Assembly (NCBI RefSeq): GCF_029889745.1
Contig: NZ_CP123639.1
Location: 1,058,501-1,122,500 of the forward strand
Source: Ligilactobacillus faecis
GTDB lineage: Bacteria; Bacillota; Bacilli; Lactobacillales; Lactobacillaceae
Length of the DNA stretch: 64,000 nt
Direction of reading: 5' to 3'
Under the pieces are notes generated by a model. It was not told the DNA's origin, did not search any database, and was given only the letters and a program-made list of their open reading frames with translations. This document shows positions 1-64,000 of this stretch, in pieces. How positions within the stretch are numbered: the stretch's first letter is position 1; each line of letters starts with the position of its first letter. Made by a program: the position numbers and the translations under genes.

Positions 1-61
1 AAAGTTCTGTTCCATTATAGTGCAGATAGGACCTAGCGTCTAGTTGACTTAAAAATTTGAG

Positions 62-105
62 AAAAAAGATCAAGTTACTATTTTCAAATGGCTTGATCTT
101 TTTTT
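62..105 (-). terminator. Rho-independent terminator after lacD
   Basis: AAAAAAGATCAAG and CTTGATCTTTTTTT form a 13-bp inverted repeat with A and T runs outside. It lies just beyond the lacD stop on the minus strand and could also act for anything entering from the left. Nothing else was recognised in bases 1-60. Confidence 0.8.
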
Positions 106-112
106 AGAAATA

Positions 113-1102
113 TTATTGATTTTTAAGACCAGTCAATGCTGGAAGTGGCGTGGCGGTCTCTTTTAAAACTTGGTTCAAACGTTCGATATTTTGACGCCCC
201 ACGGTCCGACACCAAGTACGTGCAGCTTCACTGCCTGCGCTGGCAAAAGGTTTGATGCTATCTTTCCAAGTGGCACGCCCACATAAAACACCGTTGAAAG
301 TCGAGCCGGCGTCATGCGCAAAATAAAGCGTTTCTTGGAACATCTCGGCCGAGACCCCAGCGCTCAAGAAGATAAACGGGACGCCGTTTGCAGCTAAAAC
401 TTGCTCTTTAAAGTAGCGCATTGCTTCTGCTTTAGAATAAAGTGGCGCTTCAGTTGACATCCCACTCACAAAGCGCATCTCAACGGGAACTTCAACTTTC
501 AAGACATCGACGTTATATTGTGGCTTAGAAAATTCAGCCATCATCGCGTTGACTTTATGCGGTTTGATCCGCGCATAAGCTTCACTTTTTGTATCGTTGA
601 TGTGGGCATCATAAGACATCAGCTCAAGGAAAAATGGCAACCCTTCAGCGACGCATTCGCTTCCGATCCGTTCAACAAAAGCTTGCTTTTTGCTGTTGAT
701 CAAAAAAGATTCATCTGTATCGTAATAAAGCATGAATTTAACAGCATCGGCCCCCGTTTCTTTTAAGCGTTTGACAGACCAGGTCGAGAGTAAGTCTGGC
801 ATCCGTCCAGGTGCAGTCGTATCATAGCCAGTTTTTTCATAGGCTAATAAAAGCCCGCAGTCGTTAGAGCGGGCAAAAGCTGCCGGCAGACCGTATTCGG
901 GATCAAGTAAGATCGCTGATGAATACGCTGTCATTTCTTGAGAAATGATCTCTTTGAAATGACTGAGAGCATTCGGGCTAAGGGGCTTGTCAGCTGCTTT
1001 GGCTAACATCTTTTGTAACGAGCCACGTTGATCGATCGCTAAAGCTGCGATCACGCCGTCAGCATTGGCTAAACGACTTAACTTGTTGAGCTTTGTTTCC
1101 AT
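113..1102 (-). CDS. lacD: Tagatose 1,6-diphosphate aldolase
   Basis: Cytosolic class I aldolase that splits tagatose 1,6-bisphosphate into dihydroxyacetone phosphate and glyceraldehyde 3-phosphate, the last step of the tagatose-6-phosphate pathway. The 329-residue length and the N-terminal KLSRLANADGVIAALAIDQRG segment are typical of LacD, and VKFMLYYD carries the expected Schiff-base lysine region. The ATG at 1102 is preferred over a GTG at 1111 because GGAAGGTG sits 8 bases before the ATG. It follows the GntR gene on the same strand but has its own promoter. Its place beside the GH35/PTS/agaS operon fits: AgaS makes tagatose-6-P, which after phosphorylation is the LacD substrate. No tagatose-6-P kinase (lacC) is in the window. 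Confidence 0.93.
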   Translation of the reverse strand: METKLNKLSRLANADGVIAALAIDQRGSLQKMLAKAADKPLSPNALSHFKEIISQEMTAYSSAILLDPEYGLPAAFARSNDCGLLLAYEKTGYDTTAPGRMPDLLSTWSVKRLKETGADAVKFMLYYDTDESFLINSKKQAFVERIGSECVAEGLPFFLELMSYDAHINDTKSEAYARIKPHKVNAMMAEFSKPQYNVDVLKVEVPVEMRFVSGMSTEAPLYSKAEAMRYFKEQVLAANGVPFIFLSAGVSAEMFQETLYFAHDAGSTFNGVLCGRATWKDSIKPFASAGSEAARTWCRTVGRQNIERLNQVLKETATPLPALTGLKNQ

Positions 1103-1149
1103 TTGCGCCACACCTTCCGTTCAATGTTTGAATTTGTTTTTACGAGTTT

Positions 1150-1201: not shown

Positions 1202-1208
1202 TTTTGTT

Positions 1209-2189: not shown

Positions 2190-3974
2190 ATGGATAAGTT
2201 CAGAGTACAAGCAGACGGGTTTTACCTTAACGATAGAAAATTTAAACTTTTATCAGGGGCGATCCATTATTTTAGAATTCCAAGAGAAACTTGGAAACGT
2301 TCTTTATACAATCTTAAAGCTTTAGGTTTTAATACGGTCGAAACGTATATTCCTTGGAACGTGCATGAAAAAAGCGAAGGTGTCTTTGATTTTGGCGCCG
2401 TAAAAGACTTTGTCTGCTTAGCCCAAAAATTAGGTCTATATGTGATCGTACGCCCCTCTCCTTATATTTGTGCCGAATGGGAATTTGGAGGCTTTCCAGC
2501 TTGGTTACTGACAAAAAATGTTCGGCTACGCAGTGATGATCCAACCTATCTCAATTATGTTGAGCGGTACTATCAACACTTATTTCAAGTTTTGACGCCA
2601 CTCCAAGTGACTCATGGTGGTCCGATCATCATGATGCAACTTGAAAATGAATATGGTTCTTTTGGTGAAGATAAAAATTACTTGAAACAGATCAAGCGTT
2701 TGATGGAAAAATATGGTGCAAACGTGCCACTCTTTACCGCTGATGGGGCCTGGCAAGCAACGCTTCGCGCAGGAAGTTTATTAGCAGAAGATGTGCTTTC
2801 CACAGGAAACTTTGGTTCACATGTGTCTGAAAACTTAGCGGCTTTACGCGCATTTCAGCGTGAAAATGGCAAGAAACAACCGCTTGTCTGCATGGAATTT
2901 TGGGATGGTTGGTTTGATAAATGGGGGCAAGAACCAGTTGTTCGTAAGCAAGCTGAATTAGTTGAAACGATCTTACAAGTCATTACGCAAAGTGATGGGA
3001 TCAACCTCTACATGTTTCATGGGGGCACTAATTTTGGCTTTATGAATGGCTGTTCAGCCCGACATGAACACGATACGCCCCAGATCACGTCATATGACTA
3101 CGGCGCTCTATTAAATGAGCAAGGTGATCCTACGCCAGCTTACTTTGAATTGCAAAAGCGGTTGGCTGCTCTCTATCCCGAGCTCAAACAGCAAATGCCG
3201 AAAAGCAGTCAAAAACTAACTGAAAAGACATTTACGTTAGTACAAAAGACGAGCCTTTTGACAAGTTATGATCAGTTAGGTAAAAGCACGCAAAGTAAAT
3301 ATCCAAAGTCTTTAGAAGAACTTGGGACGGGGTATGGTTATGCTTTATATCGCACACAGATCAAACGCGATACACTAAAAGATGAACGTTTTCGGATCAT
3401 CGATGCACGCGATCGGGTGCACTTTTTTATCGATGACGAACACATCAAAACGCAGTATCAAGAAGAGATCGGAGCAGATATCTATGCGCCCCTACTAAAA
3501 CCAGAAGTAAAGCTGTCGGTCTTAGTTGAAAATATGGGACGTGTCAATTACGGCAGTAAGCTTTTAGCTTCGACTCAGAAAAAAGGCTTAAAGACAGGCT
3601 TGATGGTCGATCTGCACTTTGTCTCTGGTTGGGAGCAACTTGCTTTTGATCTAAGTGAAAGTCCAAAGCTCGACTATACGCGTCCTTATCTACCAGGCAC
3701 GCCGAGTTTTTATCGCTATACATGTCAGTTAGAAAAAACAGGCGCTTGTCATTTAGATCTACGTGGTTTTGGTAAAGGGATCGTTTTAGTAAATGGGCAT
3801 AATCTAGGACGTTTTTGGGAGATCGGGCCCCAGCATTCACTATATCTACCCGCTGAATTTCTCCACCTTGGAGAAAATGAGCTCGTCGTTTTTGAGACTG
3901 AAGGACGTTATCAAGAAACGATCGCAGTTAGAGAAAGACCAGTTTGTAAAAAAGTTAAGGAGGAAGCGAAATGA
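2190..3974 (+). CDS. bgaC: GH35 beta-galactosidase
   Basis: A 594-residue glycoside hydrolase family 35 enzyme with no signal peptide, so cytosolic. Residues 1-320 form the TIM barrel. The acid/base Glu154 lies in LENEYG (151-156) and the nucleophile Glu236 in MEFWDGW. C-terminal beta-sandwich domains end in the family's GKGIVLVNGHNLGRFW segment. It likely cleaves beta-1,3-galactosides such as galacto-N-biose or lacto-N-biose after PTS import, either as BgaC or as a phospho-beta-galactosidase like L. casei GnbG; sequence alone does not decide. GAGG precedes the ATG. The stop overlaps the IIB start by 4 bases (ATGA), so it heads a translationally coupled operon. Confidence 0.92.
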   Translation: MDKFRVQADGFYLNDRKFKLLSGAIHYFRIPRETWKRSLYNLKALGFNTVETYIPWNVHEKSEGVFDFGAVKDFVCLAQKLGLYVIVRPSPYICAEWEFGGFPAWLLTKNVRLRSDDPTYLNYVERYYQHLFQVLTPLQVTHGGPIIMMQLENEYGSFGEDKNYLKQIKRLMEKYGANVPLFTADGAWQATLRAGSLLAEDVLSTGNFGSHVSENLAALRAFQRENGKKQPLVCMEFWDGWFDKWGQEPVVRKQAELVETILQVITQSDGINLYMFHGGTNFGFMNGCSARHEHDTPQITSYDYGALLNEQGDPTPAYFELQKRLAALYPELKQQMPKSSQKLTEKTFTLVQKTSLLTSYDQLGKSTQSKYPKSLEELGTGYGYALYRTQIKRDTLKDERFRIIDARDRVHFFIDDEHIKTQYQEEIGADIYAPLLKPEVKLSVLVENMGRVNYGSKLLASTQKKGLKTGLMVDLHFVSGWEQLAFDLSESPKLDYTRPYLPGTPSFYRYTCQLEKTGACHLDLRGFGKGIVLVNGHNLGRFWEIGPQHSLYLPAEFLHLGENELVVFETEGRYQETIAVRERPVCKKVKEEAK

Positions 3975-4462
3975 GTATTATCGCAGTACGGATCGATGGT
4001 CGTTTGATCCACGGCCAAGTAGCAAATCTTTGGACCACTAAATTAAATATCACGCGGATCATGGTCGTAGATGATCAAGTCGCGCAAAGCGCGATCGAAA
4101 AAAGTGGACTCAAATTAGCGACTCCTGCTGGAGTCAAGCTCAGTGTTTTGCCATACGCTAAAGCTGCCCAAAATATTTTAGCAGGACGCTATGATTCTCA
4201 AAGGCTCTTGATCGTAGCTAAAAAGCCACATTACCTCTTGAAACTCGTTGAAGAAGGCGTTTTGATCGAAGAGATCAACGTTGGGAACATGTCTCAAAAT
4301 GAAACAACGCGTCAGATCACGCGTTCGATCAATGTTGATGACCATGATGTCGAAGACTTCAAGCGCTTAGATGAAAAAGGGGTCCGTTTGATCGCCCAAA
4401 TGGTCCCAGCTGATGATGCTAAAAACTTTATGGCGATGTTGAAAGAAAAGGAAGGTGAGTAA
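3971..4462 (+). CDS. PTS IIB, mannose/GalNAc family
   Basis: A 163-residue soluble IIB. The phosphorylated histidine is His14 in RIDGRLIHGQV, the family signature. It relays phosphate from the IIA encoded at 6205 to sugar bound by IIC/IID. It overlaps the GH35 stop by 4 bases. Closest functional matches by context are the EIIB proteins of galacto-N-biose/GalNAc loci (gnbB, agaV-like). Almost every isoleucine codon here is ATC after a G-ending codon, the host signature described in the findings. Confidence 0.93.
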   Translation: MSIIAVRIDGRLIHGQVANLWTTKLNITRIMVVDDQVAQSAIEKSGLKLATPAGVKLSVLPYAKAAQNILAGRYDSQRLLIVAKKPHYLLKLVEEGVLIEEINVGNMSQNETTRQITRSINVDDHDVEDFKRLDEKGVRLIAQMVPADDAKNFMAMLKEKEGE

Positions 4463-4463
4463 C

Positions 4464-5369
4464 ATGACGATCGCATGGTGGCAGATCTTACTTTTGACTT
4501 TATATGCTGGCTACCAGATCTTAGATGAGTTACAGATCAACTCGTCGGCTGGTTCGGCAGTTTTTGCCGGTTTTATTTCAGGACTTATCATGGGGGATCT
4601 TAAAACAGGTCTGATCATCGGTGGGGGAATGCAGCTTACGATCTTAGGAGTCGGAACTTTTGGAGGCGCTTCCCGGATCGATGCGAACTCGGGAACTGTG
4701 TTAGCGACTGCCTTTTCAGTCGCGATCGGGATGGAACCAAAGCAAGCGATCGCCGCTTTAGCTGTACCGGTGGCGGCTTTGATGATCCAGACAGACGTGT
4801 TAGGGCGGTTTGCGAATACGTATTTTGTCCATCGGATCGATAAAGATATCGAGAATTTCGAATATAAAAAGATCGAACGCCATTTCTTGCTGGGGGCTGT
4901 TTCGTGGTCGCTCTCAAGAATGATCCCAGTCTTTTTAGCTTTAGCCTTTGGTGGCGGGCTTGTGACCCGAGTCGTAAATTATTTGAATACAGATCTTAAA
5001 TGGTTAGGTGATGGTCTTTCAGTTGCTGGTGCAGTGCTTCCAGCCGTTGGGTTTGCGATCTTATTACGGTACTTGCCAGTCAAAAAGCAATTTGCCTATT
5101 TGATCTTAGGTTTTGTGATCACAGCCCTTCTAACCACGCTTTTTGGCAATATCCAACTGCTAGGGACAAGCGTTTCTGGGCTCGACAAGACCTTTACAGG
5201 TAACTTTAATAGCTTGCCGATGTTAGCCGTTGCTTTGATCGGACTTGGTCTAGCAACGATCTCGTATAAAAATAACAATAATAATGCTCCAAAGAAGACA
5301 AACGAGCAAGTAGCGCAGACACAAGATAATAATGAAGGTGAGGGGGAGATCGAAGATGACGAACTCTAA
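4464..5369 (+). CDS. PTS IIC, mannose/sorbose family
   Basis: An integral membrane channel subunit of about 301 residues with the SAGSAVFAGFISGLIMGD and IGGGMQLTILGVGTFGGA segments of EIIC-Man proteins. A GTG at 4455 is possible, but the ATG at 4464 sits 5-7 bases after GGAAGGTGAG and is preferred. The C-terminus carries a hydrophilic tail rich in Asn, Gln, Glu and Asp (about the last 35 residues), longer than usual; the last codons overlap the IID ribosome binding region. It works with the neighbouring IID. Confidence 0.9.
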   Translation: MTIAWWQILLLTLYAGYQILDELQINSSAGSAVFAGFISGLIMGDLKTGLIIGGGMQLTILGVGTFGGASRIDANSGTVLATAFSVAIGMEPKQAIAALAVPVAALMIQTDVLGRFANTYFVHRIDKDIENFEYKKIERHFLLGAVSWSLSRMIPVFLALAFGGGLVTRVVNYLNTDLKWLGDGLSVAGAVLPAVGFAILLRYLPVKKQFAYLILGFVITALLTTLFGNIQLLGTSVSGLDKTFTGNFNSLPMLAVALIGLGLATISYKNNNNNAPKKTNEQVAQTQDNNEGEGEIEDDEL

Positions 5370-6603: not shown

Positions 6604-6614
6604 GGGGTGAGCCT

Positions 6615-9759: not shown

Positions 9760-11508
9760 ATGGAAACAGGAAAGCAGAAAACATCACTCAAAGCAAAGAT
9801 CCAAAAACTCGGGACGGCACTTTCGGGGATGGTGATGCCAAATATTGCTGCGATCATTGCGTGGGGCTTGATCACAGCGATCTTTATGGAGAAAGGTTGG
9901 TTCCCCAATAAACAGATCGCTGAATTGATCGATCCGATGTTAGATTATCTCCTCCCGTTACTGATCGGTTATGTTGGTGGACGTATGGTCGATGAAGAGC
10001 GCGGTGCGATCGTTGGTGCGATCGCAACGATGGGGGTCGTAGTTGGTTCAGATGTTCCGATGTTTTTAGGGGCAATGATCATGGGACCACTTGGAGGGTA
10101 TTGTATCAAAAAGCTCGATGAACTCTTTCAAGCAAAGATCCGTTCAGGCTTTGAAATGATCTATAACAATTTTTCAAGTGGAATCATGGGAATGTTGCTT
10201 GCGATCTTAGGCGTGTATATCGTCAATCCGATCGTTAGTTCAGGAAGCCACTTGATGAGCCAAGGTGTTGACTGGATCATTTCGATCCATATGTTACCAT
10301 TAGCAAATATTTTTATCGAACCAGCCAAAGTGCTGTTCTTAAACAACGCGATCGGTAATGGGATCTTAGTGCCTTTAGGGGTCCAACAAGTTGCTAGTGC
10401 GGGTAAATCAGTATTATTTTTACTTGAATCAAATCCCGGCCCAGGGTTAGGGGTCTTATTAGCCTTTATGTTCTTTGGTAAAGGCAACGCCAAAGCTTCT
10501 GCTCCTGGGGCAGTCGTGATCCAATTTATCGGGGGGATCCATGAGATCTATTTCCCATATATTTTGATGAAGCCAGCTTTATTTTTAGCTGTGATCGCTG
10601 GTGGGGTGACTGGGACGTTTACCTTCCAACTCTTTGGCGCCGGGCTCAGAGCCGCTGCTTCGCCAGGCTCGATCATCGCGATCATGATGATGACCGCCCA
10701 AGGTAGTTATTTAGGAGTCTTAGCCGGGATCGCTTCGGCCGCTATCGTTTCGTTTATCATCGCTGCGATCATCTTAAAAGCTGACCGCAAGAGTGAAGGC
10801 GATGATGAATTTGCTGCAAAACAACGTGAGATGAAGCAGATGAAAGCTGAGTCAAAAGGCCAAGCTACTGAGACAACTGATTTGACAGATTATGCAAACG
10901 TCAAAAAGATCATCTTTGCTTGTGATGCGGGAATGGGCTCGTCTGCGATGGGAGCTTCGCTGTTACGCGACAAAGTCAAAAAAGCAGGTTTAAATGAGAT
11001 CTCAGTGACAAACACGGCAGTCAGTCGCTTAAAAGATGAACCAAACTTACTTGTCGTAACGCAAGAAGAATTAGCTGAACGCGCGGCGCAAAAGACACCA
11101 CATGCAGTGCATATCCAAGTCGGAAACTTTTTGAACAGTCCAAAATACGATGAGATCATTGCCAAATTAAAAACAAGCACTTACCTTGAACCTGAAACAA
11201 ATTCACCAGAAACTAAAGCTAAACCAGAGCTTGAACTTGATCAAGTAGAAGAGATCGATTTTATCCGACACGATCAAAATCGCGGGACTTCGACGATGGC
11301 AGTCAGTCTCCTGAAAGATAAATTGCATGAGCAAGGTAAAAATATTCCAGTCAAAGCAGTGCGTTTAGCTGATCTAAAAGATGATCACCATCATTTAGTG
11401 ATCGTGACAAAAGAAGCACAAAAGAATTTAGAAGTTCGTTATACAAATGTCCAAGTTTTAGTCGTTTCAGATCTTTTAGATCTTGACGTTTTACTTGAAA
11501 AACTTTGA
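9760..11508 (+). CDS. mtlA: Mannitol PTS IICB with second, degenerate IIB domain
   Basis: A 582-residue membrane protein. Residues 1-345 form the EIIC-Mtl channel (GTALSGMVMPNIAAIIAWGL, FIGGIHEIYFPYILMKP). A IIB domain follows at about 380-470 with the phosphocysteine in IIFACDAGMGSSAMGAS. After a Glu/Pro-rich linker, residues of about 500-582 repeat the IIB fold, but the P-loop reads IDFIRHDQNRGTSTMA with no cysteine, so it cannot be phosphorylated there. GGAGGCG precedes the ATG. It heads mtlA-mtlF-mtlD-mtlR and imports mannitol as mannitol-1-P. Confidence 0.93.
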   Translation: METGKQKTSLKAKIQKLGTALSGMVMPNIAAIIAWGLITAIFMEKGWFPNKQIAELIDPMLDYLLPLLIGYVGGRMVDEERGAIVGAIATMGVVVGSDVPMFLGAMIMGPLGGYCIKKLDELFQAKIRSGFEMIYNNFSSGIMGMLLAILGVYIVNPIVSSGSHLMSQGVDWIISIHMLPLANIFIEPAKVLFLNNAIGNGILVPLGVQQVASAGKSVLFLLESNPGPGLGVLLAFMFFGKGNAKASAPGAVVIQFIGGIHEIYFPYILMKPALFLAVIAGGVTGTFTFQLFGAGLRAAASPGSIIAIMMMTAQGSYLGVLAGIASAAIVSFIIAAIILKADRKSEGDDEFAAKQREMKQMKAESKGQATETTDLTDYANVKKIIFACDAGMGSSAMGASLLRDKVKKAGLNEISVTNTAVSRLKDEPNLLVVTQEELAERAAQKTPHAVHIQVGNFLNSPKYDEIIAKLKTSTYLEPETNSPETKAKPELELDQVEEIDFIRHDQNRGTSTMAVSLLKDKLHEQGKNIPVKAVRLADLKDDHHHLVIVTKEAQKNLEVRYTNVQVLVVSDLLDLDVLLEKL

Positions 11509-11521: not shown

Positions 11522-11968
11522 ATGGAATTAACAAAAGATATGATCTTATTAGATCAAGCACCCGCTACCAAAACTGAGGCGATCCGCTTAGCCGGACAGT
11601 TGCTCGTCAAAGCTGGCTGTGTTAAAGAAGAGTATATCGATTCGATGATCGCAAGAAATAATGATGTTTCGACATATATGGGCAATTTCATCGCGATCCC
11701 CCACGGAACTGACGCTGGCAAAAAATATATCGAAAAAACAGGGATCTCAGTCGTTCAAGTTCCATTAGGTGTTGACTTTAGTAATGATGCAGCGACAGAG
11801 AATCTAGTGACGGTCGTTTTTGGGATCGCAGGCTCAAATAACGAGCATTTAGAGTTGCTCTCTCAGATCGCACTTTTTTGTAGTGATGTTTCAAACGTAG
11901 CCAAATTAGCAGATGCACAAAGTGAACAAGAGATCATAGATTTATTGAAAGAGGTCGGAAAAGAATGA
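11522..11968 (+). CDS. mtlF: Mannitol PTS IIA
   Basis: A 148-residue cytosolic IIA of the fructose/mannitol family. The active histidine lies in FIAIPHGTD. The ATG at 11522 follows GAGAGGTG, whereas an in-frame start at 11483 lies inside mtlA. It phosphorylates the IIB domain of MtlA, and the last codons overlap mtlD by 4 bases. Confidence 0.93.
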
Positions 11969-13122
11969 AAAAAGCATTACATTTTGGAGCAGGTAATATC
12001 GGACGGGGCTTTATCGGAGAAGTTTTGGCTAAAAACGGTTTTGCGATCACATTTGTTGATGTTTCAGAAGAGATCATCGATGCTTTAAATGAGAAAGGTG
12101 CCTATAAGATCTTCTTAGCTGGACCAGAAAAAGAAGAGCAACTGATCACAAATGTCAAAGGGATAAATAATGCGCTTGAACCAGAAAAAGTTAGCGCAGC
12201 TTTGGTAGAAACAGATCTAGTGACGACTGCGATCGGACCTAAGATCTTACCAAAGATCGCTCCTTTGATCGCTTCTGGGATCAAGCAACGTAAACAAGCT
12301 AAAAAGATGCGACCGTTAGATGTGATCGCCTGTGAGAACATGATCGGTGGCTCACAATTTTTAAGACAAGAAGTCTATCGTTACTTAGATGGACCTGAGC
12401 GTGCTTATGCTGATGAATATCTAGGTTTTCCAAACGCTGCTGTTGATCGGATCGTACCTAAACAAGACCACACAGATCCTTTGTCAGTCACTGTCGAGCC
12501 TTTCAAAGAGTGGGTCGTAGACGAAAGTCAACTCAAAGCTCCAGCGCTAAAATTGACGGAAGTTCATTATGCTAAAGATCTTGAACCCTATATCGAGCGT
12601 AAACTTTTTTCGGTCAATACTGGACATGCGACAGTTGCTTATACTGGAGCTGATCTAGGCTACCAGACGATCAAAGATGCGATCAAAGATCCTAAAGTTT
12701 TGCAACGCTTGCGTGCGGTTTTAAGTGAGACTAGAGCCTTGTTGCTTGCTAAATGGGACTTTAGTGCAAAAGAACTTGAAGATTACCACCAAAAGATCAT
12801 CGCCCGCTTTGAAAATCCTTATCTTTCTGATGAGATCGTTCGCGTTGGCCGTACACCGCTCCGGAAATTGGGTTATAACGAGCGCTTTATTCGCCCCTTG
12901 CGTGAGAGTTTTGCCCGCGGGCTTAATTATCAAGCACTTTTAGAGACGACCGCGTTGATCTATCGTTTCGACGACCCAAAAGATGAAGAAAGCCAAAAGT
13001 TGGCGTCTCTCTTAGCGACCCGACCGCTGAAAACTGTGATCAGTGAGACGACTGGATTAGATCCAAAAAAAGATCATGTCTTGATCGAACAGTTAGCTAC
13101 ATGTTATTTACAGCATAAATAA
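11965..13122 (+). CDS. mtlD: Mannitol-1-phosphate 5-dehydrogenase
   Basis: A 385-residue NAD-dependent long-chain dehydrogenase that converts mannitol-1-P to fructose-6-P. The Rossmann motif [14 protein letters not shown] is at the N-terminus, and [16 protein letters not shown] carries the catalytic Lys and conserved family segment. The start overlaps the mtlF stop (ATGA), indicating translational coupling. Full length for the family. Confidence 0.95.
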
Positions 13123-15416: not shown

Positions 15417-17234
15417 ATGTGTGGTATTGTTGGGGTTACAGGCAATAGCAATGCAAAAGATATTTTATTAGACGGCTTAGAACAACTTGAATATCGTGGC
15501 TATGACTCAGCTGGGATCTATGTCAATGATCAGCACGGTGATGGTTTTTTAGTTAAAGAAAAGGGACGGATCGCAGACTTACGCGCTTTAGTCGGGGATG
15601 AGGTCGTTGGCTCAACTGGGATCGGACATACTCGTTGGGCGACACACGGTGTGCCAAGCGTACGTAATGCCCATCCACATGTTTCAGCTAATGGGCGTTT
15701 CTTTTTAGTGCATAACGGTGTGATCGGTAACTTTGCCCAATTACGCGAAACATACTTACAAGATGTTGAGCTAAAAAGTGATACCGACACCGAGATCATC
15801 GTTCAATTAGTCGGAAAATTCTCTGATGAAGGTCTCGATACTTTAGCAGCTTTCCGAAAAGTTTTAAGTTTAGTCGATGAAAGTTCTTCTTATTCCTTTT
15901 TGATGATGGACAAAGAACAACCAGAAAAGCTTTTTGTTGCTAAAAATAAGAGTCCACTTTTGATCGGGGTCGGTGCAGGTTTTAACGTTGTTTGTTCCGA
16001 TGCAGTTGCCATGTTGACACAAACGCATGATTTTATCGAATTGACAGACGGTGAAGTCGTGATCGTGACACCAGATCAGATCAAGATCTTAGATGAAAAA
16101 GATCATGAGATCAAACGAAAACCATTCCATGTGGATACTGATCCCGCTGCTGCTCAAAAAGGCGCTTACCCACACTATATGTTGAAAGAGATCGATGAAC
16201 AACCAGGTGTGATGCGGACTTTAGTGCAAGAGTATTTTGATGCTTCTGGTAATGTCAAGATCGATCAAGACTTGCTCGATACTTTAGGTCAAGCTGATCG
16301 TTTATATATCGTAGCTGCTGGGACAAGTTATCATGCTGGGCTCGTTGGCAAAGAGCTTTTTGAAAAATTAGCTGGTATCCCAACAGAAGTTCATGTGGCC
16401 TCTGAATTTGCTTATAATCCACCGCTCTTATCGAAGCGTCCATTCTTTATCTTCTTGACTCAAAGTGGTGAAACAGCTGATAGTCGCCAAGTTTTGACTC
16501 AAGTCAATGAATGGGGCTATCCAAGTTTGACGATCACTAACGTGCCAAACTCAACGCTTTCGCGCGAAGCGAGCTACACGCTTTTATTACATGCTGGGCC
16601 TGAGATCGCTGTTGCTTCTACAAAAGCTTATACGGCTCAGATCGCCTTAGAAGCGATCTTAGTCAAAGCTTACGGCGAAGCCAAAGGGATCCAAAAAGTC
16701 AAAGACTTTGATGTGGCTTCTGAATTGACTAAAGTTGCTAATGGGATGCAAGAATTAGTTGATGAAAAGCATAATGTCGAACAGATCGCTAAAGAGATGT
16801 TGAGTACAACGCGAAACGCCTTTTACATCGGACGCGGAGTCGACTACGCTTTAGCACAAGAAGCGGCTTTGAAACTCAAAGAAGTTTCTTATGTCCAAAC
16901 AGAAGGGTTTGCTTCAGGTGAATTGAAACACGGAACGATCGCCTTGATCGAAGAAGGTACACCAGTTGTGGCGATCATCACAGATCCAAAAACAGCTGCC
17001 CATACAAGAAGTAACGCACAAGAGGTCTTAGCGCGCGGTGCTAATGTCTTGTTCATCGCTAGTCGTGATCTGGCAACAGATAATGATCAGATCGTCTTAC
17101 CAGAAGTTGACCCGTTACTTTCTCCACTTGTGTCAGTCGTGCCAACACAATTACTGGCTTATTACACAAGTATCCAACGTGGTTACGATGTCGACAAGCC
17201 ACGTAACTTAGCTAAGAGCGTAACAGTCGAATAA
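15417..17234 (+). CDS. glmS: Glutamine-fructose-6-phosphate aminotransferase
   Basis: A 605-residue cytosolic enzyme that makes glucosamine-6-P from fructose-6-P and glutamine, the entry to cell-wall precursors. MCGIVGV gives the N-terminal nucleophile Cys after Met removal; HTRWATHG and the glutaminase domain span about 1-225. Two SIS isomerase domains follow (AAGTSYHAGLVGKELFEKLAG; IGRGVDYALAQEAALKLKEV), and the C-terminus ends DKPRNLAKSVTVE as in the family. GTGAGG precedes the ATG. A terminator separates it from nagB, which runs the reverse reaction. Confidence 0.96.
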   Translation: MCGIVGVTGNSNAKDILLDGLEQLEYRGYDSAGIYVNDQHGDGFLVKEKGRIADLRALVGDEVVGSTGIGHTRWATHGVPSVRNAHPHVSANGRFFLVHNGVIGNFAQLRETYLQDVELKSDTDTEIIVQLVGKFSDEGLDTLAAFRKVLSLVDESSSYSFLMMDKEQPEKLFVAKNKSPLLIGVGAGFNVVCSDAVAMLTQTHDFIELTDGEVVIVTPDQIKILDEKDHEIKRKPFHVDTDPAAAQKGAYPHYMLKEIDEQPGVMRTLVQEYFDASGNVKIDQDLLDTLGQADRLYIVAAGTSYHAGLVGKELFEKLAGIPTEVHVASEFAYNPPLLSKRPFFIFLTQSGETADSRQVLTQVNEWGYPSLTITNVPNSTLSREASYTLLLHAGPEIAVASTKAYTAQIALEAILVKAYGEAKGIQKVKDFDVASELTKVANGMQELVDEKHNVEQIAKEMLSTTRNAFYIGRGVDYALAQEAALKLKEVSYVQTEGFASGELKHGTIALIEEGTPVVAIITDPKTAAHTRSNAQEVLARGANVLFIASRDLATDNDQIVLPEVDPLLSPLVSVVPTQLLAYYTSIQRGYDVDKPRNLAKSVTVE

Positions 17235-38469: not shown

Positions 38470-38620
38470 GATAAAGCCTTTCGATAAAAGCGTGATCTCC
38501 TAAGTGAGACCACGCTTTTTTTACATATCGTGACGATTCATGACGAATAAATGACGACTTGTGCCAAATGTTAGGAATAGGAATTTCTCGGGAAATAAGT
38601 TGTGAAAAGTGCCCAAAGAT
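38422..38620 (+). repeat. gpmA 3'-end repeat, copy A
   Basis: From TATGAATTGG through the stop, terminator and the ATGACGA-rich stretch, this matches 39198-39396 with scattered substitutions. In the coding part the differences are synonymous ([15 protein letters not shown] in both). Confidence 0.85.
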
Positions 38621-40003: not shown

Positions 40004-40858
40004 TTGAATATTAAAAAGTCTTCATCTCGATCCGATGACCACTATTCGAAGAAATTGCGTAGTTTGACAAAAGAAGTTGCTAGCGTGGGGAGTGCGGACG
40101 GCAATTACGTTGATAAGTTTCGCTTAGTGAAAAAAGCAAGCAAGTTCGCACCAGATGAAAATGAAGTTTCATTTTTGCAGAGGCATGTTCTTCAAGTATA
40201 TTTAATTTTTGTGATCCAATTATTCTATACTGGAATAGTATCATGGTATATGTATTTGCATCCAAAGTTGCTTTTGAAATTGTTGAAGGGCCTTCTTTTT
40301 GCTCATGGTCTAGTATTTCTTGCACTGTGTTTTGTTCTATTAGCTTTATTGACTTTTGCACAAAAAACTGATTCTTTAATACTAGGTATGGTAGCTACTC
40401 TTGGATTCACGACAGCATGGGGGATAGTGATGGGACTTGTACCCATTTTTTACGACGGAAAACTGATTTTTGAGGCTTTGGTGCTGACGATCATTATTTA
40501 TTTGGGTAGCGCATTGTTTGGTTTTTTGACAAGAAACAATTTAACCGGGTGGGGAACACCATTATTTGGTGGATTATTGGCATTGATCGCATTGGGCTTC
40601 TTTCAGCACTATTATGCTAATAGTTTTTTGAACATAGTAATTTTAATTGCGGACATTATTATCTTTACACTGTATAGTGCATATGATAATCAAATGATCA
40701 AAATACGTTTCTTAGACAAGTTGCGTGACGGTGTTCCTGACTCTGGAAAGTCATGGTGGCTGTTAGCTATGTCTAGCTCAATAGATATTTACTTAGACTT
40801 TGTTAATTTATTTTTGGATATTCTGAATCTTTTAGGTGACGGTGACGATGACGATTGA
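40004..40858 (+). CDS. Bax inhibitor-1/YccA-like membrane protein
   Basis: A product of about 284 residues starting at TTG 40004, 6 bases after GAAGGGGA; a TTG at 39968 would add 12 residues. About 80 hydrophilic residues precede seven hydrophobic segments. The C-terminal pattern (LYSAYDNQMIKIRF, SSSIDIYLDFVNLFLDILNLLG) resembles the BI-1/UPF0005 family, which act as pH-sensitive calcium leak channels or protease modulators. A tail of Asp residues ends the protein. The long N-terminal domain is unusual for that family. It lies inside the island, with non-host codon use. Confidence 0.65.
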   Translation: MNIKKSSSRSDDHYSKKLRSLTKEVASVGSADGNYVDKFRLVKKASKFAPDENEVSFLQRHVLQVYLIFVIQLFYTGIVSWYMYLHPKLLLKLLKGLLFAHGLVFLALCFVLLALLTFAQKTDSLILGMVATLGFTTAWGIVMGLVPIFYDGKLIFEALVLTIIIYLGSALFGFLTRNNLTGWGTPLFGGLLALIALGFFQHYYANSFLNIVILIADIIIFTLYSAYDNQMIKIRFLDKLRDGVPDSGKSWWLLAMSSSIDIYLDFVNLFLDILNLLGDGDDDD

Positions 40859-41109
40859 GGATCAATTTTAGCCATTAAGATGATCATTTGATAAATCCAA
40901 AAACTTTAATTAAAAGTGGATATGTGAGAAAGATCATGGTTAACAATGACTGGGGATATTTTAAAGTGCAACAAAGAACTTTTCCTTCATTTCCATGTAT
41001 ACGTGACACAAAATTTTGAAAACAGGTGAATCCAATTAATGGACGGTAGCAAATAGAATTAGAAAGAGAGGAGTAATATTATTCATGTCATAATATTACA
41101 AAATGGGAT

Positions 41110-41658
41110 ATGGAAAATGAGTATATTGTATATCAGAGTAGGTTAAGGATAGTTGGAAAACTTTTACTTGGGGTGTTTATGATACTTCTGTTCCTCTTTG
41201 CCTTTTTTGTTGGAGTGCTTGAACAGCAATGGTTGCCTTTAGTTATAAGCATCATAGGTTTTATATTTTTTGGATACTTCGAGATTTATATCATAAAACA
41301 ACTTTTTGTGGGTAGAAAACTGGTGGTATTGACCGTTGAAGGTTTTTACGATTTCAGTTCAGTAATTTCCCCCAAAAATCAATTGATTCCATGGAGTCAG
41401 GTAGCAAAAATTGAAAAAATAGATTTTGCTGAACAAGAGTTTGTCTCCGTCTATCTGAAAAACTCAGAGGAGATTTTATCTGAATTACCTACTATGTCGA
41501 AAAAATTAATAGCTACAAATGTAAAGATGGGCTTTGGAGAAATCAGTATCAATCTAAATAGTGCAAAAAAATGTACGGTTAATAAGTTGATCGCAAAAAT
41601 GAATAGGTACAAAGCCCTAAGTACTTTGCATAAAGACATAGATCGATCTGATAATTAG
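41110..41658 (+). CDS. STM3941-like protein with two membrane segments
   Basis: A 182-residue protein. Two hydrophobic segments (about 16-62) are followed by a soluble domain with a PH-like pattern (LVVLTVEGFYDFSSVI ... IPWSQVAKIEKIDF ... VSVYLKN). This arrangement matches small STM3941-type proteins of unknown function. GGGATATGG lies before the ATG. It is 250 bases after the BI-1-like gene, in the same direction, and may form a cargo unit with it. A weak hairpin terminator follows (41669-41703). Confidence 0.6.
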   Translation: MENEYIVYQSRLRIVGKLLLGVFMILLFLFAFFVGVLEQQWLPLVISIIGFIFFGYFEIYIIKQLFVGRKLVVLTVEGFYDFSSVISPKNQLIPWSQVAKIEKIDFAEQEFVSVYLKNSEEILSELPTMSKKLIATNVKMGFGEISINLNSAKKCTVNKLIAKMNRYKALSTLHKDIDRSDN

Positions 41659-41965
41659 TATCAAGCGTTTAATAGAGTACCTCAAATACTCTGTTATTTT
41701 TTGGATATTTAATACTGACGAAAAAGTGGGAATTTTAAGCAAACATATCCTACAGAAGGGAGAAGATAGGAAATAAAGCATGTTTAGAAAGGTAAACATG
41801 TAAAATATACTTTGATTAAATTTTTACTTCTTTAAATAGAAAATATAAGCAGTGAATAACCATATAAAAGTTTGAGATAGAAATGAAATGATAAATTTCA
41901 TATGATATATATAAAACATTTTTAAGATACCATTTTTTGTTGTTTATCATGTGTTTATAACCCAG

Positions 41966-42050
41966 ACAATAACTTGAACCATTCTCCAGAAAAGCATACA
42001 GTTTTCTACACAAAAAAGCGTGTTCTCAAACGAGAGCCCGCTTTTTTGTG
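41966..42050 (+). repeat. Degraded gpmA 3'-end repeat, copy C
   Basis: GACAATAACTTGAACCATTC and the following bases are a decayed version of the last gpmA codons. The terminator AAAAAAGCGTGTTCTC ... GAGAGCCCGCTTTTTT (42012-42047) is nearly identical to copy B with one substitution in the stem. It also terminates the convergent gene at 42055. Confidence 0.7.
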
Positions 42051-42054
42051 CACA

Positions 42055-42276
42055 TTACGTTATGCTAGCAATAAAATACAAGACTGTGGATAAGGTCATC
42101 AACACAAGGCAACTAAAAAGGAAAAGTGATGAACGATCATTTTCCAAAAAGGTCATACCAAGTGTGAGAGCCAGCAAAAGTTCTGGGTGAAAGTTGAAGA
42201 TCTGCAATAAAAGATGTGTAACAAGAAAAACGATAAACAAGACGATCTGGATCCTTTGTAAGACTTTAAAGCGCAT
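42055..42276 (-). CDS. Small two- or three-segment membrane protein
   Basis: A 73-residue product with two clear hydrophobic segments (IVLFIVFLVTHLLLQIF, LFLFSCLVLMTLSTVLYFI) and a possible third between them. AAAAGGGGGAAC precedes the ATG by a few bases, and copy C's terminator follows the stop. I do not recognise it. It may be the original gene downstream of gpmA before the island arrived. Confidence 0.55.
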   Translation of the reverse strand: MRFKVLQRIQIVLFIVFLVTHLLLQIFNFHPELLLALTLGMTFLENDRSSLFLFSCLVLMTLSTVLYFIASIT

Positions 42277-42484
42277 GCTTGTTCCCCCTTTTTATATCAG
42301 TGATCGTATTCTAGATCATAGTAGTGGTATAGATGTTGTTTAATATCTGTTTTAATGTGTTATATCATAATTTAAGCAAACATTAAAGGTATTATAGATG
42401 CGCTTTGATTTTAATGATCACCAAAATTTTAATGAGATTCAGCCGGAAATCCCGTGACTTTAGTCATGTGATGGATAGGCCCTG

Positions 42485-42934
42485 TCAAGCTCCGTAAGGG
42501 GCTTTTTTCATCTCATTGTATTTTTGATCGTTTATATATTTTTCAACTACTTCTTTACTCATATTACCTAACGTGCTCATGTAGTAACTAGGAGACCATA
42601 AATGACCACTCCAGTATCGAGACTGCCGAATTTCCGGGTGTCGACGTAAGAAAATAAAGGCACTTCTGCCTTTGAGCGCTTTGATGGCGCTAGTCGGTGC
42701 CTTGCTAGGCGGAAAGCTAATTAAGACATGAACATGGTCAGGCATAACTTCCATTTTCTCGATTACGATTTCGTTATCCTCGGCTACTTGCCATAGGATA
42801 TCCTTCATTTCGTTTGATAACTCATCAGTAGTAAAAGTTTTATGACGATATTTAGTAACCCAAATTAGATGGAAATGGAAGTTATAGATATATCGTCTGG
42901 TATATACTGCGTCTTTGATTTTATCTTTACTCAT
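42485..42934 (-). CDS. tnpA: IS200/IS605 Y1 transposase TnpA
   Basis: A 149-residue HUH single-strand transposase. The metal-binding HVH is at residues 67-69 (MPDHVHVLISFPP) and the nucleophile is Tyr133 in VVEKYINDQ. WSGHLWSPSYYMSTLG is conserved. The ATG at 42934 fits the family N-terminus; the frame further upstream runs into the tnpB control region. All catalytic residues are present, so it may be active. Confidence 0.93.
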   Translation of the reverse strand: MSKDKIKDAVYTRRYIYNFHFHLIWVTKYRHKTFTTDELSNEMKDILWQVAEDNEIVIEKMEVMPDHVHVLISFPPSKAPTSAIKALKGRSAFIFLRRHPEIRQSRYWSGHLWSPSYYMSTLGNMSKEVVEKYINDQKYNEMKKAPYGA

Positions 42935-43008: not shown

Positions 43009-44259
43009 ATGAAGTCAATGGCAAAAATGCAATATCATTATGGCCTGAAAATGCGTTGCTACCCTAGTGACCAACAAAAGCAGTTGATTAAAATTAACAG
43101 TGACGCTAGTCGCTTTATCTATAACGAAATGGTTGCGATCGGTAAGGAACTGATGCAACTTCGCAGAGTTAAGTTACCGATTGACACAGTCCAGGAGCGT
43201 ATTAAGCAACTAACTATGCGTCAAAACGCTAAACAAATGTCTAATCACTATCAATTTTTAGAAGATAAACGAATTGACAGTTTGGCGAAAGCTAATGCCA
43301 TTCAGAACTACCGAAAAGCTTGGAATGCCTTTCGGAAGGTTCACACTGCTGGTGTTCCTAAATTTCATCGAAAGAGTTATCGCTGGAGTTATCAAACTAA
43401 TTGTCAATACCCAGGGCAAAAGACTGCGTTGCTAACTAACGGTACAGTATGTTTTTTAGATAAGCACCATGTTAAAGTGCCTAAAATTGGTCGGTTACGG
43501 ATTACGGGTTCTCAAGCGCGCCTATTGAAAAGAGCGTGTGAAACTAGAATTGGCACAGTAACTTTGACTAAAGATCCAGCAGATCGCTTTTTCATATCAA
43601 TGCAACTAGCTTCAGATGAACCTTTTGTTAAAGTGTCCAAGGCTAATCACGGACATATTGGAATTGATCTTAATACTGATAATTTCTTAACCGATAATGA
43701 AGGTAACACAGTTCCTAACCCACGATATTATCGTACTATTAAAGGCAAATTAGCCAAAGAACAGCGTATTCTATCTAGACGACAACGCCGTGCCAAGAAA
43801 GAACATCGCTCTTTACAGAATAGTAAAAATTACCAAAAGCAACGCTTGTTAGTTGCCAAACTCCATGCCAAAGTAATGAACCAAAGACATAATTTTCTCC
43901 AACAAATCTCTACTGCACTAATCAAGAACCACGATTTAGTAGTAGCTGAGGAGTTGCGTAGTAAGAATATGCTCAAGAATCATGCTTTAGCGCTTAGTAT
44001 TTCTGACGTTGGCTGGCGAACATTTCTCGGCATGTTGGCTTATAAAGCTAAGCTGTATAATCATCAGTTCGTGACTGTCAGCCCGAAAAATACTACTCAA
44101 ACTTGCAATGATTGTAGTTTTATCATGGGAACTAATAACACCGAGAAACTAACCTTGGCTGATCGTGAATGGACGTGTCCTAATTGCGGTATTCATCATA
44201 TTCGTGACTGGAATGCCGCTAAGAATATTCTTGATAAGGGAATAGCTAAACTAGCCTAG
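43009..44259 (+). CDS. tnpB: TnpB RNA-guided nuclease of an IS605 element
   Basis: A 416-residue TnpB (OrfB). The RuvC catalytic residues are Asp220 (GHIGIDLNTD), Glu314 (VVAEELRS) and Asp400 (HHIRDWNAAKN). A zinc ribbon uses Cys366, Cys369, Cys390 and Cys393. AAGGAGGTG precedes the ATG. TnpB proteins are guided by an RNA from the element's right end to cut donor sites, helping element retention. With all residues intact this one could be active. Its isoleucine codons do not follow the host pattern. Confidence 0.94.
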   Translation: MKSMAKMQYHYGLKMRCYPSDQQKQLIKINSDASRFIYNEMVAIGKELMQLRRVKLPIDTVQERIKQLTMRQNAKQMSNHYQFLEDKRIDSLAKANAIQNYRKAWNAFRKVHTAGVPKFHRKSYRWSYQTNCQYPGQKTALLTNGTVCFLDKHHVKVPKIGRLRITGSQARLLKRACETRIGTVTLTKDPADRFFISMQLASDEPFVKVSKANHGHIGIDLNTDNFLTDNEGNTVPNPRYYRTIKGKLAKEQRILSRRQRRAKKEHRSLQNSKNYQKQRLLVAKLHAKVMNQRHNFLQQISTALIKNHDLVVAEELRSKNMLKNHALALSISDVGWRTFLGMLAYKAKLYNHQFVTVSPKNTTQTCNDCSFIMGTNNTEKLTLADREWTCPNCGIHHIRDWNAAKNILDKGIAKLA

Positions 44260-61290: not shown

Positions 61291-61293
61291 AAT

Positions 61294-62892
61294 TTATTTA
61301 ACGACAGTAGTTTTAAAATTGTAACCTCCGATCGGAGCATATTGAAGAGCTTGGACATCTTTTTTGAGCAGAGTTGCTAAGGCTGGCTGATAGAGTGGAA
61401 TCACAGCTTGTTCTTTATTTAATAGATCAGAAGCGCGCAATAGATCTGAGATCCGTTTAGCGCCACTGTTAGTTTTAGCTTGGGCTAACAACTTGTCATA
61501 TTCTGGATTTTTCCACTTACCAAAGTTATAGTGACTATCAGCTGTAAAGAGATCTAAGACACTCGTCGCATCTTGATAGTCGGCCCCCCAACCCGTTGAG
61601 ACAAGGTCAAAATCACCTTGTTGCATTCGCGTGATCCGATTTTTCTTATTGATGTTAGCGGTTTTGATCGTCACATGAGGTAAATTACTTTCAAGTTGGG
61701 ATTGGAGAAATTCATTTGTTTTTTTGCTCAAATCTTCATCATCACCTAAGAGTTCAAGGGTCAATTCTTTTTGCCCAAGTTCTTTTAATCCTTTGGCCAA
61801 ATATGCTTGAGCTTTTTTCTTATCAAAACTTGTACCAACTTTAGTAGCAGCTAGTTTACTGAAATCTTGTCCTTTATAAGACATCAGGCCTTTGGGAATG
61901 AAGCTTTCAGTCGTGATCGAACCATTTGCTAAAACGCGCTCAACAAGTTGTTTGCGATCGATCGCGTAAGAGAGTGCACGTCGGATATTCAAATTTTTAA
62001 GTGCCGGTCGTTCTTTGTTGATATCAAGATAGTGGATCCGTGCTTGCTTACGGGCTACAAAATCAGGATCCTTTTTCAGAGCTTGTGCTTGATCTTGACT
62101 TAGATCAGTCTTATCAAGTTGACCACTTTGAAACATGTTATATGAAGTGCTAGTACTTTTGGTGACTAAAAAATTGATCTTATCTAATTTAACATGGCCT
62201 TTGTCCCAATATTTAGCATTTTTAGTCAGAGACCATTTTTGTTCAGGTCCGGTCCAAGCTTTAACGGTAAAAGGACCGTTAAAAATAGCTTTTTTAGCTG
62301 AGGTCCCATATTCTTTTCCAAATTTTGCCACGGCTTTTTCATTTAGGGGAGCAAAGATCGGCGCTGTCGTCAACGATTCAAAGTAAGGGATCTTATTTTC
62401 TAAAGTGACTTGCAAAGTATGTTTATCAAGTGCTACTACGCCTAGTTGATCGGGAGCGACTTGACCAGATGCGATCGCTTTAGCATTTTTGATCCCGTCA
62501 AAAAGTTGTACATTAGCAGCACCAGTCTGAGGCGTGAGCGCTCGCCGCCAACTAAAGACGAAATCCGCCGCCGTCACAGGGTCATTATTAGACCACCGTG
62601 CATCTTTTTGTAAAGAAAACGTGTAAGTCAGACCATCAGATGAGATCTTTTCTTTAGTAACTAAGGCAGGGCTCAATTTACCGTTATTTTCTAAACGATA
62701 CAGTCCTTCATAACTATTGCGTAAGATCTCTGAGCTAGTCGTATCAACTGAGAGTGCTGGATCAAGGGTCTGGAGTTCAGCTGGTTCGCTCCAATTCAAA
62801 GTTTTTGTGGCTAAGACAGGCGAACTTTGCCACAACCAAAAGGTGGTCAGACTAAAAAAAATAGCGGTAATAAATTTAGTAACTTTATGCAT
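61294..62892 (-). CDS. Oligopeptide-binding protein, OppA-like, without lipobox
   Basis: A 532-residue extracellular solute-binding family 5 protein. Motifs LNWSEPAELQTLDPALSVD, DGLTYTFSLQKDARWSNNDPVTA and FVFSWRRAL match peptide-binding proteins. The N-terminus is a signal peptide (KFITAIFFSLTTFWLWQSSPVLA) followed by TKTLNW, with no cysteine at a lipobox; none was seen in the rest either. It would be released or held by other means, not lipid-anchored as OppA usually is. AAAGGATGGTG precedes the ATG. No permease or ATPase genes are adjacent. It may bind peptides freed by the protease. Confidence 0.88.
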   Translation of the reverse strand: MHKVTKFITAIFFSLTTFWLWQSSPVLATKTLNWSEPAELQTLDPALSVDTTSSEILRNSYEGLYRLENNGKLSPALVTKEKISSDGLTYTFSLQKDARWSNNDPVTAADFVFSWRRALTPQTGAANVQLFDGIKNAKAIASGQVAPDQLGVVALDKHTLQVTLENKIPYFESLTTAPIFAPLNEKAVAKFGKEYGTSAKKAIFNGPFTVKAWTGPEQKWSLTKNAKYWDKGHVKLDKINFLVTKSTSTSYNMFQSGQLDKTDLSQDQAQALKKDPDFVARKQARIHYLDINKERPALKNLNIRRALSYAIDRKQLVERVLANGSITTESFIPKGLMSYKGQDFSKLAATKVGTSFDKKKAQAYLAKGLKELGQKELTLELLGDDEDLSKKTNEFLQSQLESNLPHVTIKTANINKKNRITRMQQGDFDLVSTGWGADYQDATSVLDLFTADSHYNFGKWKNPEYDKLLAQAKTNSGAKRISDLLRASDLLNKEQAVIPLYQPALATLLKKDVQALQYAPIGGYNFKTTVVK

Positions 62893-63072
62893 AAAAACAC
62901 CATCCTTTTTTAATAAACTGATCTTCAGTAAGATAAAATCAATATAGTATATAATTTAACCAAAATCAACACTTTATTTAATCCGAGTCTAATTTATAGT
63001 TAATTTTTTAGCTAATTATTTGGCGATAAATCTTGTGGTACACTTGAGAAAGTGAAAGGAAGTGGCACGATC

Positions 63073-63855
63073 TTGCAAGCAAAAAAACACACACTTACAG
63101 TTGAAAAGGGAGAATTATTACTTGAAACAACACTTTTAGCCGGAAAGATCATGATCGAAAATGGAGCAGATATGGCACGAGTTGACGATACTCTCAAACG
63201 GATCGCCCAAAATTCAGAGATCACAACACCAGAGATCTTTGAGACAACGACTGGGATCATGATGTCGATCCCAGGGCATAATGCTCAAGTCAAAGCGATC
63301 GCTCGGCGCCAGATCGATCTAGAGCGGATCGCAATGGTCAATGAGATCTCGCGCGCTTATCAAGCTAAGCAAGTCGATCTAACACAAATGCACGAATATT
63401 TGAAAAATCTGGATAAAAGTGCTCCTGATTTTAAATTGATCTGGCTTATTTTAGGGGCTGGAACTGTGGGAGCGACTTTGGAGATCATGTATGGTGGTAG
63501 TTGGAGCGATCTTTTACCGACTTTTTTGATCAGTGCACTAGGTTATTATGTTTTTTATGCGATCAACACGCGCTTTAAAGTTAAATTTGCGAGTGAATTT
63601 TTGGCAGCTTTAGTGATCGGTCTATGTGCTTTATTTGCTGTCAAATTTCGGTTAGGTCAAGATTACGGAATGATCATTATCGGGAGCGTGATGCCACTTG
63701 TGCCGGGAGTTCCGTTGACCAATGCAGTCCGCGATCTCTTAGCTGGACATATATTGAGTGGCAGTGCCCGGGTCGTTGAAGCTTTGTTGACAGCTGTGGC
63801 TTTAGGCATGGGTATCGCTTGTGTCTTGCGTTTTTGGAAATTAGGGGGCTTATGA
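63073..63855 (+). CDS. ThrE-family exporter, large subunit-like (DUF1212)
   Basis: A protein of about 260 residues. The soluble N-terminus (about 1-120) contains LLAGKIMIENGADMARVDDTL, GIMMSIPGH and RQIDLERIAMVNEISR, typical of the ThrE/YjjP domain. Five hydrophobic segments follow. The TTG at 63073 lies 8 bases after GAAAGGAAGTG and is preferred over a GTG at 63052. Such proteins export threonine, serine or succinate with a partner. The partner follows with overlapping ATGA. Confidence 0.87.
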   Translation: MQAKKHTLTVEKGELLLETTLLAGKIMIENGADMARVDDTLKRIAQNSEITTPEIFETTTGIMMSIPGHNAQVKAIARRQIDLERIAMVNEISRAYQAKQVDLTQMHEYLKNLDKSAPDFKLIWLILGAGTVGATLEIMYGGSWSDLLPTFLISALGYYVFYAINTRFKVKFASEFLAALVIGLCALFAVKFRLGQDYGMIIIGSVMPLVPGVPLTNAVRDLLAGHILSGSARVVEALLTAVALGMGIACVLRFWKLGGL

Positions 63856-64000
63856 TGACGATCAGGGAGAGCTTAGTTCATATTATTTTTAGTTATTTAG
63901 CCACGATCGGGTTTGCAGTGACTTTGAATATCCCACGCAAAGCGCTTAATGTTTGTGGACTGATCGGTGTTTTAGGCTGGATGACGTATAAAGTTTTTTA
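63852..64000 (+). CDS. ThrE-family exporter, small subunit-like (YjjB/DUF3815), partial
   Basis: Starts with ATG at 63852 or 63855, overlapping the previous stop, and continues beyond the window. MTIRESLVHIIFSYLATIGF then AVTLNIPRKALNVCGLIGVL is the N-terminus of the second half of split threonine/serine exporters. About 49 residues are visible, with two hydrophobic segments. Confidence 0.85.
   Translation, partial: MMTIRESLVHIIFSYLATIGFAVTLNIPRKALNVCGLIGVLGWMTYKVF

Follow-up and report, generated by a model that had tools for sequence, protein, structure and literature searches.

A GATC excess in Ligilactobacillus faecis that probably stems from one-way base change at GATT/AATC

GATC excess and GATT/AATC loss in the window and the genome

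The window analyzed here is the 64,000-nucleotide stretch G000:C1:1058501-1122500 of Ligilactobacillus faecis, where G000 denotes the 2.38-Mb source genome. It carries phosphotransferase system (PTS) genes, a putative mtlD, a GlmS-like gene, and tnpB (Table 1), and throughout it the tetranucleotide GATC is in large excess, with 958 occurrences versus 232 expected from base composition. In a second-order Markov comparison, GATC is the most overrepresented tetranucleotide of the window (ratio 1.66), and the strongest depletion is that of AATC (0.32), followed by GATT (0.38). A preliminary description of this DNA had drawn attention to the GATC density. Its local counts hold, with 9 GATC in positions 4501-4800 (zero-order expectation 1.1), none in 39661-39960, and 5 in tnpB; the observation stands, and the signal exceeds what was described. 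The mirror-image loss of GATT and AATC had not been remarked on there. The strength of the signature is given below as GATC/(GATC+GATT), called the GATC ratio.

Table 1. Features of the window that bear on the GATC signature, with genes called by open reading frame (ORF) length only
Feature	Positions	Strand	Observations
Field of GATC excess and GATT/AATC loss	1..64000		958 GATC; same in the sampled G000 stretches
IIB gene (name from the preliminary description)	3971..4462	+	10 of 12 ATC after a G-ending codon; 11 GATC
Neighboring gene holding the dense stretch 4501-4800	4455..5369	+	21 GATC, no GATT or AATC (ratio 1.00)
PTS EIIC/IIB gene	9760..11508	+	Pfam PTS_EIIC, PTS_IIB; 31 of 44 ATC after G; 38 GATC
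mtlD (name from the preliminary description)	11965..13122	+	19 of 24 ATC after G; 27 GATC
SIS/glutamine amidotransferase gene (GlmS-like)	15417..17234	+	Pfam; 31 GATC, ratio 0.97; typical core gene
Weak-signature stretch, read as recently acquired	37783..44259		Gene ratios 0.29-0.67; mostly lower GC
tnpB (OrfB_IS605 / TNB domain)	43009..44259	+	Pfam; 5 GATC, ratio 0.48

The signature extends across the genome. In a sample of 464 kb made up of the window and 20 further stretches, GATC stands at 3.7 times the zero-order value; the sequence available at the level of stretches covers about a quarter of G000. Context counts were made on 484 kb of G000, with stretches L013 and L021, which have a weak signature, excluded. 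After GAT, the fraction C/(C+T) is 0.83, and after every other trimer it is at most 0.56. Each of the 16 flanking base pairs around GAT[C/T] gives a C fraction between 0.71 and 0.93, which indicates that the recognized unit is four bases long.

The excess is also found between genes. On both strands of intergenic G000 DNA, GATC occurs 880 times versus 529.5 expected and GATT 385 times versus 708.4 expected, and the neighboring words GATA (688 versus 702.2) and CATC (351 versus 366.3) lie near expectation. A stricter intergenic set gave 5.0 GATC per kb versus 1.0 in unenriched congeners.

Codon-level tests of base change, codon pair, and word

Among 53 genes of the window, 667 of 908 ATC codons (73%) follow a G-ending codon. 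G-ending codons therefore prevail in this position, although the preliminary wording that they do so "nearly always" was overstated. Its NNG-ATC codon phase likewise stands as a count, accounting for 3807 of the 5313 coding GATC in 355 sampled genes, but it is not a junction effect, and neither is the excess confined to genes, as intergenic DNA and the GAT-CTR frame have it too. The phase is prevalent because both changes, NNA-ATC to NNG-ATC and NNG-ATT to NNG-ATC, are synonymous there.

Synonymous choice was compared along three kinds of route (tests A, B, and C). These left out stretches L013, L021, and L220 as well as genes with a ratio below 0.7 or few sites, so that by recount 339 of 405 genes of G000 and 110 of 133 genes of its relatives G022 and G014 were kept; this filter inflates test A but not test B.

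Test A followed synonyms that differ by the GATT/AATC transition itself. For isoleucine, ATC/(ATC+ATT) is 0.979 after G versus 0.570 and 0.581 after C and T, and it is 0.222 after G in unenriched congeners. For the preceding codon, NNG/(NNG+NNA) is 0.983 before ATC versus 0.341 before other A-starting codons, with 0.277 in unenriched congeners. The control for codon use that the preliminary description had named as its own refutation is thus survived by the NNG enrichment, and it is the cause that changes. Leucine reads in another frame: the CTR share is 0.871 after GAT versus 0.188 after other xAT codons (unenriched congeners, 0.097), and in unfiltered genes CTR makes up 0.73 of 438 cases after GAT versus 0.19-0.25 after other codons. 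Relative to the unenriched congeners, the bias in filtered genes is about 60-fold for isoleucine and leucine and 119-fold for fourfold codons; the unfiltered odds ratio is 45- to 76-fold.

Test B, where GATC would be reached by a different route, was flat. Aspartate GAT before C is used at 0.813, versus 0.815 before A and 0.789 before G (unfiltered, 0.809 versus 0.811 and 0.792), and glycine GGA before TC at 0.140, versus 0.145 before TA and 0.123 before TG (unfiltered, 0.163 versus 0.175 and 0.127). GATC is therefore not preferred when the route is other than the GATT/AATC transition. Test C, in turn, rules out avoidance of GATT and AATC by way of other synonyms. Aspartate GAC before T is at 0.290 versus 0.185 and 0.211 (unenriched, 0.342 versus 0.279 and 0.271), asparagine AAC before C at 0.345 versus 0.231, 0.292, and 0.413 (unenriched, 0.392 versus 0.312, 0.330, and 0.390), and AAG/GAG/CAG before TC at 0.263 versus 0.257-0.278. 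The aspartate and asparagine differences slightly exceed those of the unenriched genomes and come nowhere near the size of test A.

The loss and the gain balance. Per 1000 codons, isoleucine junctions of the form {A,G}-AT{C,T} total 36.3, 37.1, 37.0, 37.2, and 37.1 in five groups of genomes, whereas G-ATC runs at 29.9, 31.3, 17.1, 17.4, and 3.1 in the same groups. G-ATA is not depleted, staying at 1.4-2.2 per 1000 codons in every group. The bias runs one way, affects only transitions within {G,A}AT{C,T}, whatever the flanking bases, and works neither for nor against a word. A depleted T form, an enriched C form, a constant sum, and independence from reading frame make up the pattern of very short patch (VSP) repair.

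Distribution, timing, and candidate agents

The genome groups compared here are small samples of at most 20 kb per stretch. A ParC tree, covering 24 of the 26 Ligilactobacillus genomes, places the enriched species in two clades, A and B, that are not sisters. Clade A holds G000 (ratio 0.82), G014 (0.78), G022 (0.81), and G021 (0.61), and clade B (G007, G008, G015, G016, and G017) has ratios of 0.50-0.66; the other 17 genomes, some sampled by only about 5 kb, range from 0.15 to 0.48. Stretches L090, L094, L095, and L057 of G012, G023, and G025 follow the opposite trend, with GATC strongly depleted (0.15-0.21), as after GATC restriction.

Across 397 genomes of the family, G000 has the highest density of TTGATC (7786 in 2.38 Mb), with densities computed from genome sizes rounded to 0.1 Mb. 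Six genomes of other genera, picked for their high TTGATC and, in the case of G373, for its Vsr as well, were sampled at 10 kb each. Five of them (G256, G223, G232, G410, and G140; stretches L275-L278 and L280) show a weaker form of the signature, with ratios of 0.61-0.75 and GATT below expectation, and G373 is weaker still (0.49).

The direction of change was followed on the tips of the tree, with codons polarized by an outgroup; sites scored as changed in both tips may be outgroup changes. On the G014 and G022 tips, NNG became NNA at 4 of 130 sites before ATC versus 31 of 209 elsewhere (P = 0.0004), and isoleucine C became T at 2 of 151 sites after G versus 4 of 46 (P = 0.03). With G000 as the outgroup, the losses on these tips were 9/202 versus 28/230 (NNG to NNA) and 4/231 versus 5/54 (isoleucine). 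Loss of GATC is thus rarer than in control contexts. For G022 taken with the same outgroup, losses were 2/171 versus 19/191 and 4/206 versus 5/57; its sister G021 lost 24/171 and 21/206, with controls of 46/191 and 15/57. The rarity of losses in G014 and G022 and their number in G021 therefore suggest, on small numbers, that the process persisted in the first two and lost strength or ceased in G021. In clade B, NNA before ATC became NNG at 5 of 9 sites versus 72 of 362 (P = 0.02).

Taken together, these patterns probably reflect a one-way T:A to C:G change at GATT/AATC that resembles VSP repair and acts genome-wide and in any frame in this Ligilactobacillus lineage. The process would be a mismatch correction. 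Wherever GATT comes to lie opposite GATC, by misincorporation or by deamination of 5-methylcytosine, a T·G mismatch would arise in which T is replaced by C, and GATC would therefore act as a trap. Such an activity would probably have originated in a GATC cytosine methylase acting with a T·G endonuclease, for example in a locus like that of G015 (Candidatus L. excrementavium) and G017 (L. pobuzihii), where a C5-methylase, Vsr, and a Sau3AI/MutH-family gene are found together. Its GATC specificity is inferred from the Sau3AI-family neighbor, and the nuclease match falls below the curated cutoff.

Several results weigh against this interpretation. Profile searches of G000 gave no match to Vsr (PF03852), C5-methylase (PF00145), the Dam family (PF02086), Sau3AI/MutH (NF040973), or DUF559; those with PF00145 and PF02086 were run on G000 only. 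The intergenic shift in odds ratio is about 12-fold, versus 45- to 76-fold at isoleucine junctions, a difference that constrained sites may account for. The G015 and G017 loci have low GATC ratios of their own (0.35 and 0.23), on account of which they are read as newcomers, and the four Vsr-bearing methylase loci outside Ligilactobacillus are GATC-poor (0.14-0.27). T-to-C change at GATT is not raised on the G014 and G022 tips (2 of 102 sites versus 15 of 410); the surviving GATT sites are probably constrained. On the G015 and G017 tips, GATC-to-GATT change is commoner than in the control (8/198 versus 5/422 tip-sites; P = 0.03), perhaps owing to the methylase that these genomes carry. Finally, internal repeats of G000 show a slight, nonsignificant excess of C/T differences at GAT_ (34/979 versus 818/32565 elsewhere; P = 0.06), in a comparison that is weak because tandem copies overlap and insertion sequence copies may have diverged elsewhere.

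The searches dispose of Dam methylation, C5 methylation, and a Sau3AI/MutH nuclease as agents in G000. Among the 26 genus genomes, NF040973 is matched in three, the methylase P0001 in three others than G000 (E values up to 1e-10), and Vsr in two, G015 and G017. Methylase, Vsr, or Sau3AI remnants in the sampled G000 stretches amount to one weak match of 88 amino acids in L013 to a Sau3AI-type query (E value, 2e-4). Because the known candidates were not found in G000, the agent there may have been lost, may vary between strains, or may belong to a family outside those searched.

In 43 named loci with this C5-methylase family, a Sau3AI-type neighbor is present in 37 and Vsr in 6. The C5-methylase, Vsr, and Sau3AI/MutH-family genes adjoin one another at loci L010 and L011 (G015 and G017) and at L151 and L170; the methylases are 98% identical and their Sau3AI-type neighbors 27%, a pattern that resembles an exchange of the nuclease. 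Locus L167, in a metagenome-assembled genome labeled as an archaeon (Methanofastidiosia), has a 71% identical version of this methylase next to a Sau3AI-type gene and is possibly a misbinned contig.

Two narrower versions of the VSP-like reading differ in the enzyme. One, a real possibility though short of probable, is ordinary VSP repair by a mobile Vsr cassette beside a GATC C5-methylase; such a cassette would come and go, and the sequenced representatives of enriched species would therefore often be without Vsr. The locus is present in G015 and G017, and Lactiplantibacillus plantarum and Lactobacillus johnsonii have plasmids with related Vsr genes. G013 (L. hayakitensis), which has methylase and nuclease and no Vsr match, is unenriched (0.29), a single case that fits Vsr mattering. 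Vsr is matched in 21 of the 397 family genomes, namely, in 5 of the 32 that are TTGATC-rich (at least 1900 per Mb) versus 16 of the 365 others (P = 0.02, uncorrected for kinship, GC, or codon use). However, Vsr is not matched in 27 of the 32 TTGATC-rich genomes, and the association falls to P = 0.07 without G255, a borderline genome at the threshold. Moreover, where Vsr in other genera is partnered by a Sau3AI-type or related gene, the locus is mostly poor in GATC, and these GATC-poor Vsr loci rule out present-day Vsr as a sufficient cause.

The other version, which we put forward tentatively and with some doubt, is that an unrecognized non-Vsr enzyme inherited with the clade A chromosome converts T·G to C·G at GATC. 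The signature is present in all four clade A species and Vsr was found in none of them, the known families are absent from G000 in the profile searches, and the process looks kept in G014 and G022 and relaxed in G021. Against it stands that no candidate gene was found, with about a quarter of G000 available as sequence. An extra HhH-GPD glycosylase, considered as a candidate, does not track the trait: the second copies of G008, G016, and G017 have relatives in the unenriched G003 and G018, G000 has a different protein as its second copy, and G014 and G022 each gave a single match (the second copy of G015 lay outside the comparison). In its fullest and likewise speculative form, clade A may keep such an activity without a cytosine methylase, rewriting synonymous and intergenic sites in a single direction and as much as about a hundredfold, and similar activities may have arisen in other genera of the Lactobacillaceae.

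The same product could come from the other strand, if adenine at AATC were deaminated to hypoxanthine and read as G. The sequence data are alike for this and for T·G correction, as both turn GATT/AATC into GATC, yet the rarer GATC losses in G014 and G022 would call for fast reconversion, and we consider it quite unlikely. We know of no DNA adenine deaminase with an AATC-type site, which also counts against it.

Selection for the word GATC, one of the two options of the preliminary description, would treat it as a binding site or a replication or repair signal and accords with a strong excess genome-wide and between genes. It is nevertheless very improbable, being contradicted by the flat aspartate and glycine routes and disfavored by the constant sum of isoleucine junctions, the undepleted G-ATA, and the near-expected intergenic GATA and CATC. 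The other option, a translational preference for the codon pair NNG-ATC, can claim the prevalence of that phase and is hardly credible in view of the intergenic excess and the leucine effect in another frame.

Acquired DNA and comparison with known systems

The preliminary description had also taken low GATC for a mark of recent acquisition and confined the excess to host genes. The first point is borne out: in most genes of two restriction-modification (R-M) islands of G000 bearing PF01555 (L219:15328-19902 and L220:10729-15390), the ratio is 0-0.27, versus about 0.86-0.96 in adjoining core genes, and the weak-signature stretch of the window (Table 1) is low as well. Within the coordinates given, where ratios are 0-0.23, these islands look like type III R-M systems of recent arrival; the labels type III R-M, prophage, Nth, and AlkA were assigned by eye from ORFs. 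A low GATC ratio is thus a fair marker of recent arrival. The second point applies broadly, but the island at 37901-42500 has 24 GATC versus 14.0 expected, and a prophage-like stretch of G000 outside the window is GATC-high in most of its larger genes (mostly 0.57-0.86). This stretch, which had no match in the phage collection, carries the third PF01555 methylase of G000, the other two lying in the low-signature islands.

The gene at 37783-38469, which borders the low-GC stretch of the window, looks foreign despite a host-like GC content of 0.43, with only 1 of its 12 ATC codons after G. A second copy of tnpB, 96.8% alike, lies in G000 stretch L026. In stretches L017 and L025 of G000, large ORFs that resemble those of surface proteins contain long tandem repeats.

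The apparent "preferences" for codons and codon pairs across the genome emerge here as side effects of a single directed base change and not of selection on a word or a codon pair, a clean case that cautions against a translational reading of codon-pair bias. The constant family sum and the route-specific synonym tests can be applied to HIP1 in cyanobacteria and CCGG in Helicobacter, and the GATC ratio can serve as a residence-time marker for acquired DNA. Should the agent turn out to be something other than Vsr, common lactic acid bacteria would hold an unrecognized kind of DNA repair enzyme.

Among the open-access matches listed, the literature held nothing on GATC enrichment in Lactobacillaceae. 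In Helicobacter, CCGG is in unexplained excess according to the available text of PMC4687349. It is likewise a restriction-type palindrome, but the site and the phylum are different. Closer at hand, the Sau3AI-type R-M locus with Vsr of L. pobuzihii and Candidatus L. excrementavium brings these genes together at one site within the genus; it looks recently acquired, however, and was not found in G000.

The Dcm/Vsr system of Escherichia coli corrects T·G to C·G at one methylase site, which predicts, as seen here, loss of the T form and excess of the C form in any frame. In the text available from PMC12907096, Vsr nicks the T strand, and VSP repair is treated together with a DUF559-bearing Vsr-like protein. 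The present case differs in that G000 has no Vsr or C5-methylase match, the site is GATC and not CCWGG, and the bias is about 45- to 120-fold.

Highly iterated palindromes (HIPs) of cyanobacteria, HIP1 and the alternate HIPs (GCGATCGC), are GATC-cored and in great excess as well. In contrast, the Ligilactobacillus unit is four bases with no flank requirement, the change is limited to GATT/AATC, and G000 has no C5-methylase or Dam match. A preference for the word by whatever synonymous route, as for a selected HIP-like palindrome, was not found here. As far as the accessible part of PMC4390886 goes, Elhai's proposal attributes the origin and upkeep of HIPs to methylation-dependent mismatch repair, so that their overrepresentation may be an epiphenomenon, and this repair model is the nearest published idea that we found to the process suggested for Ligilactobacillus.

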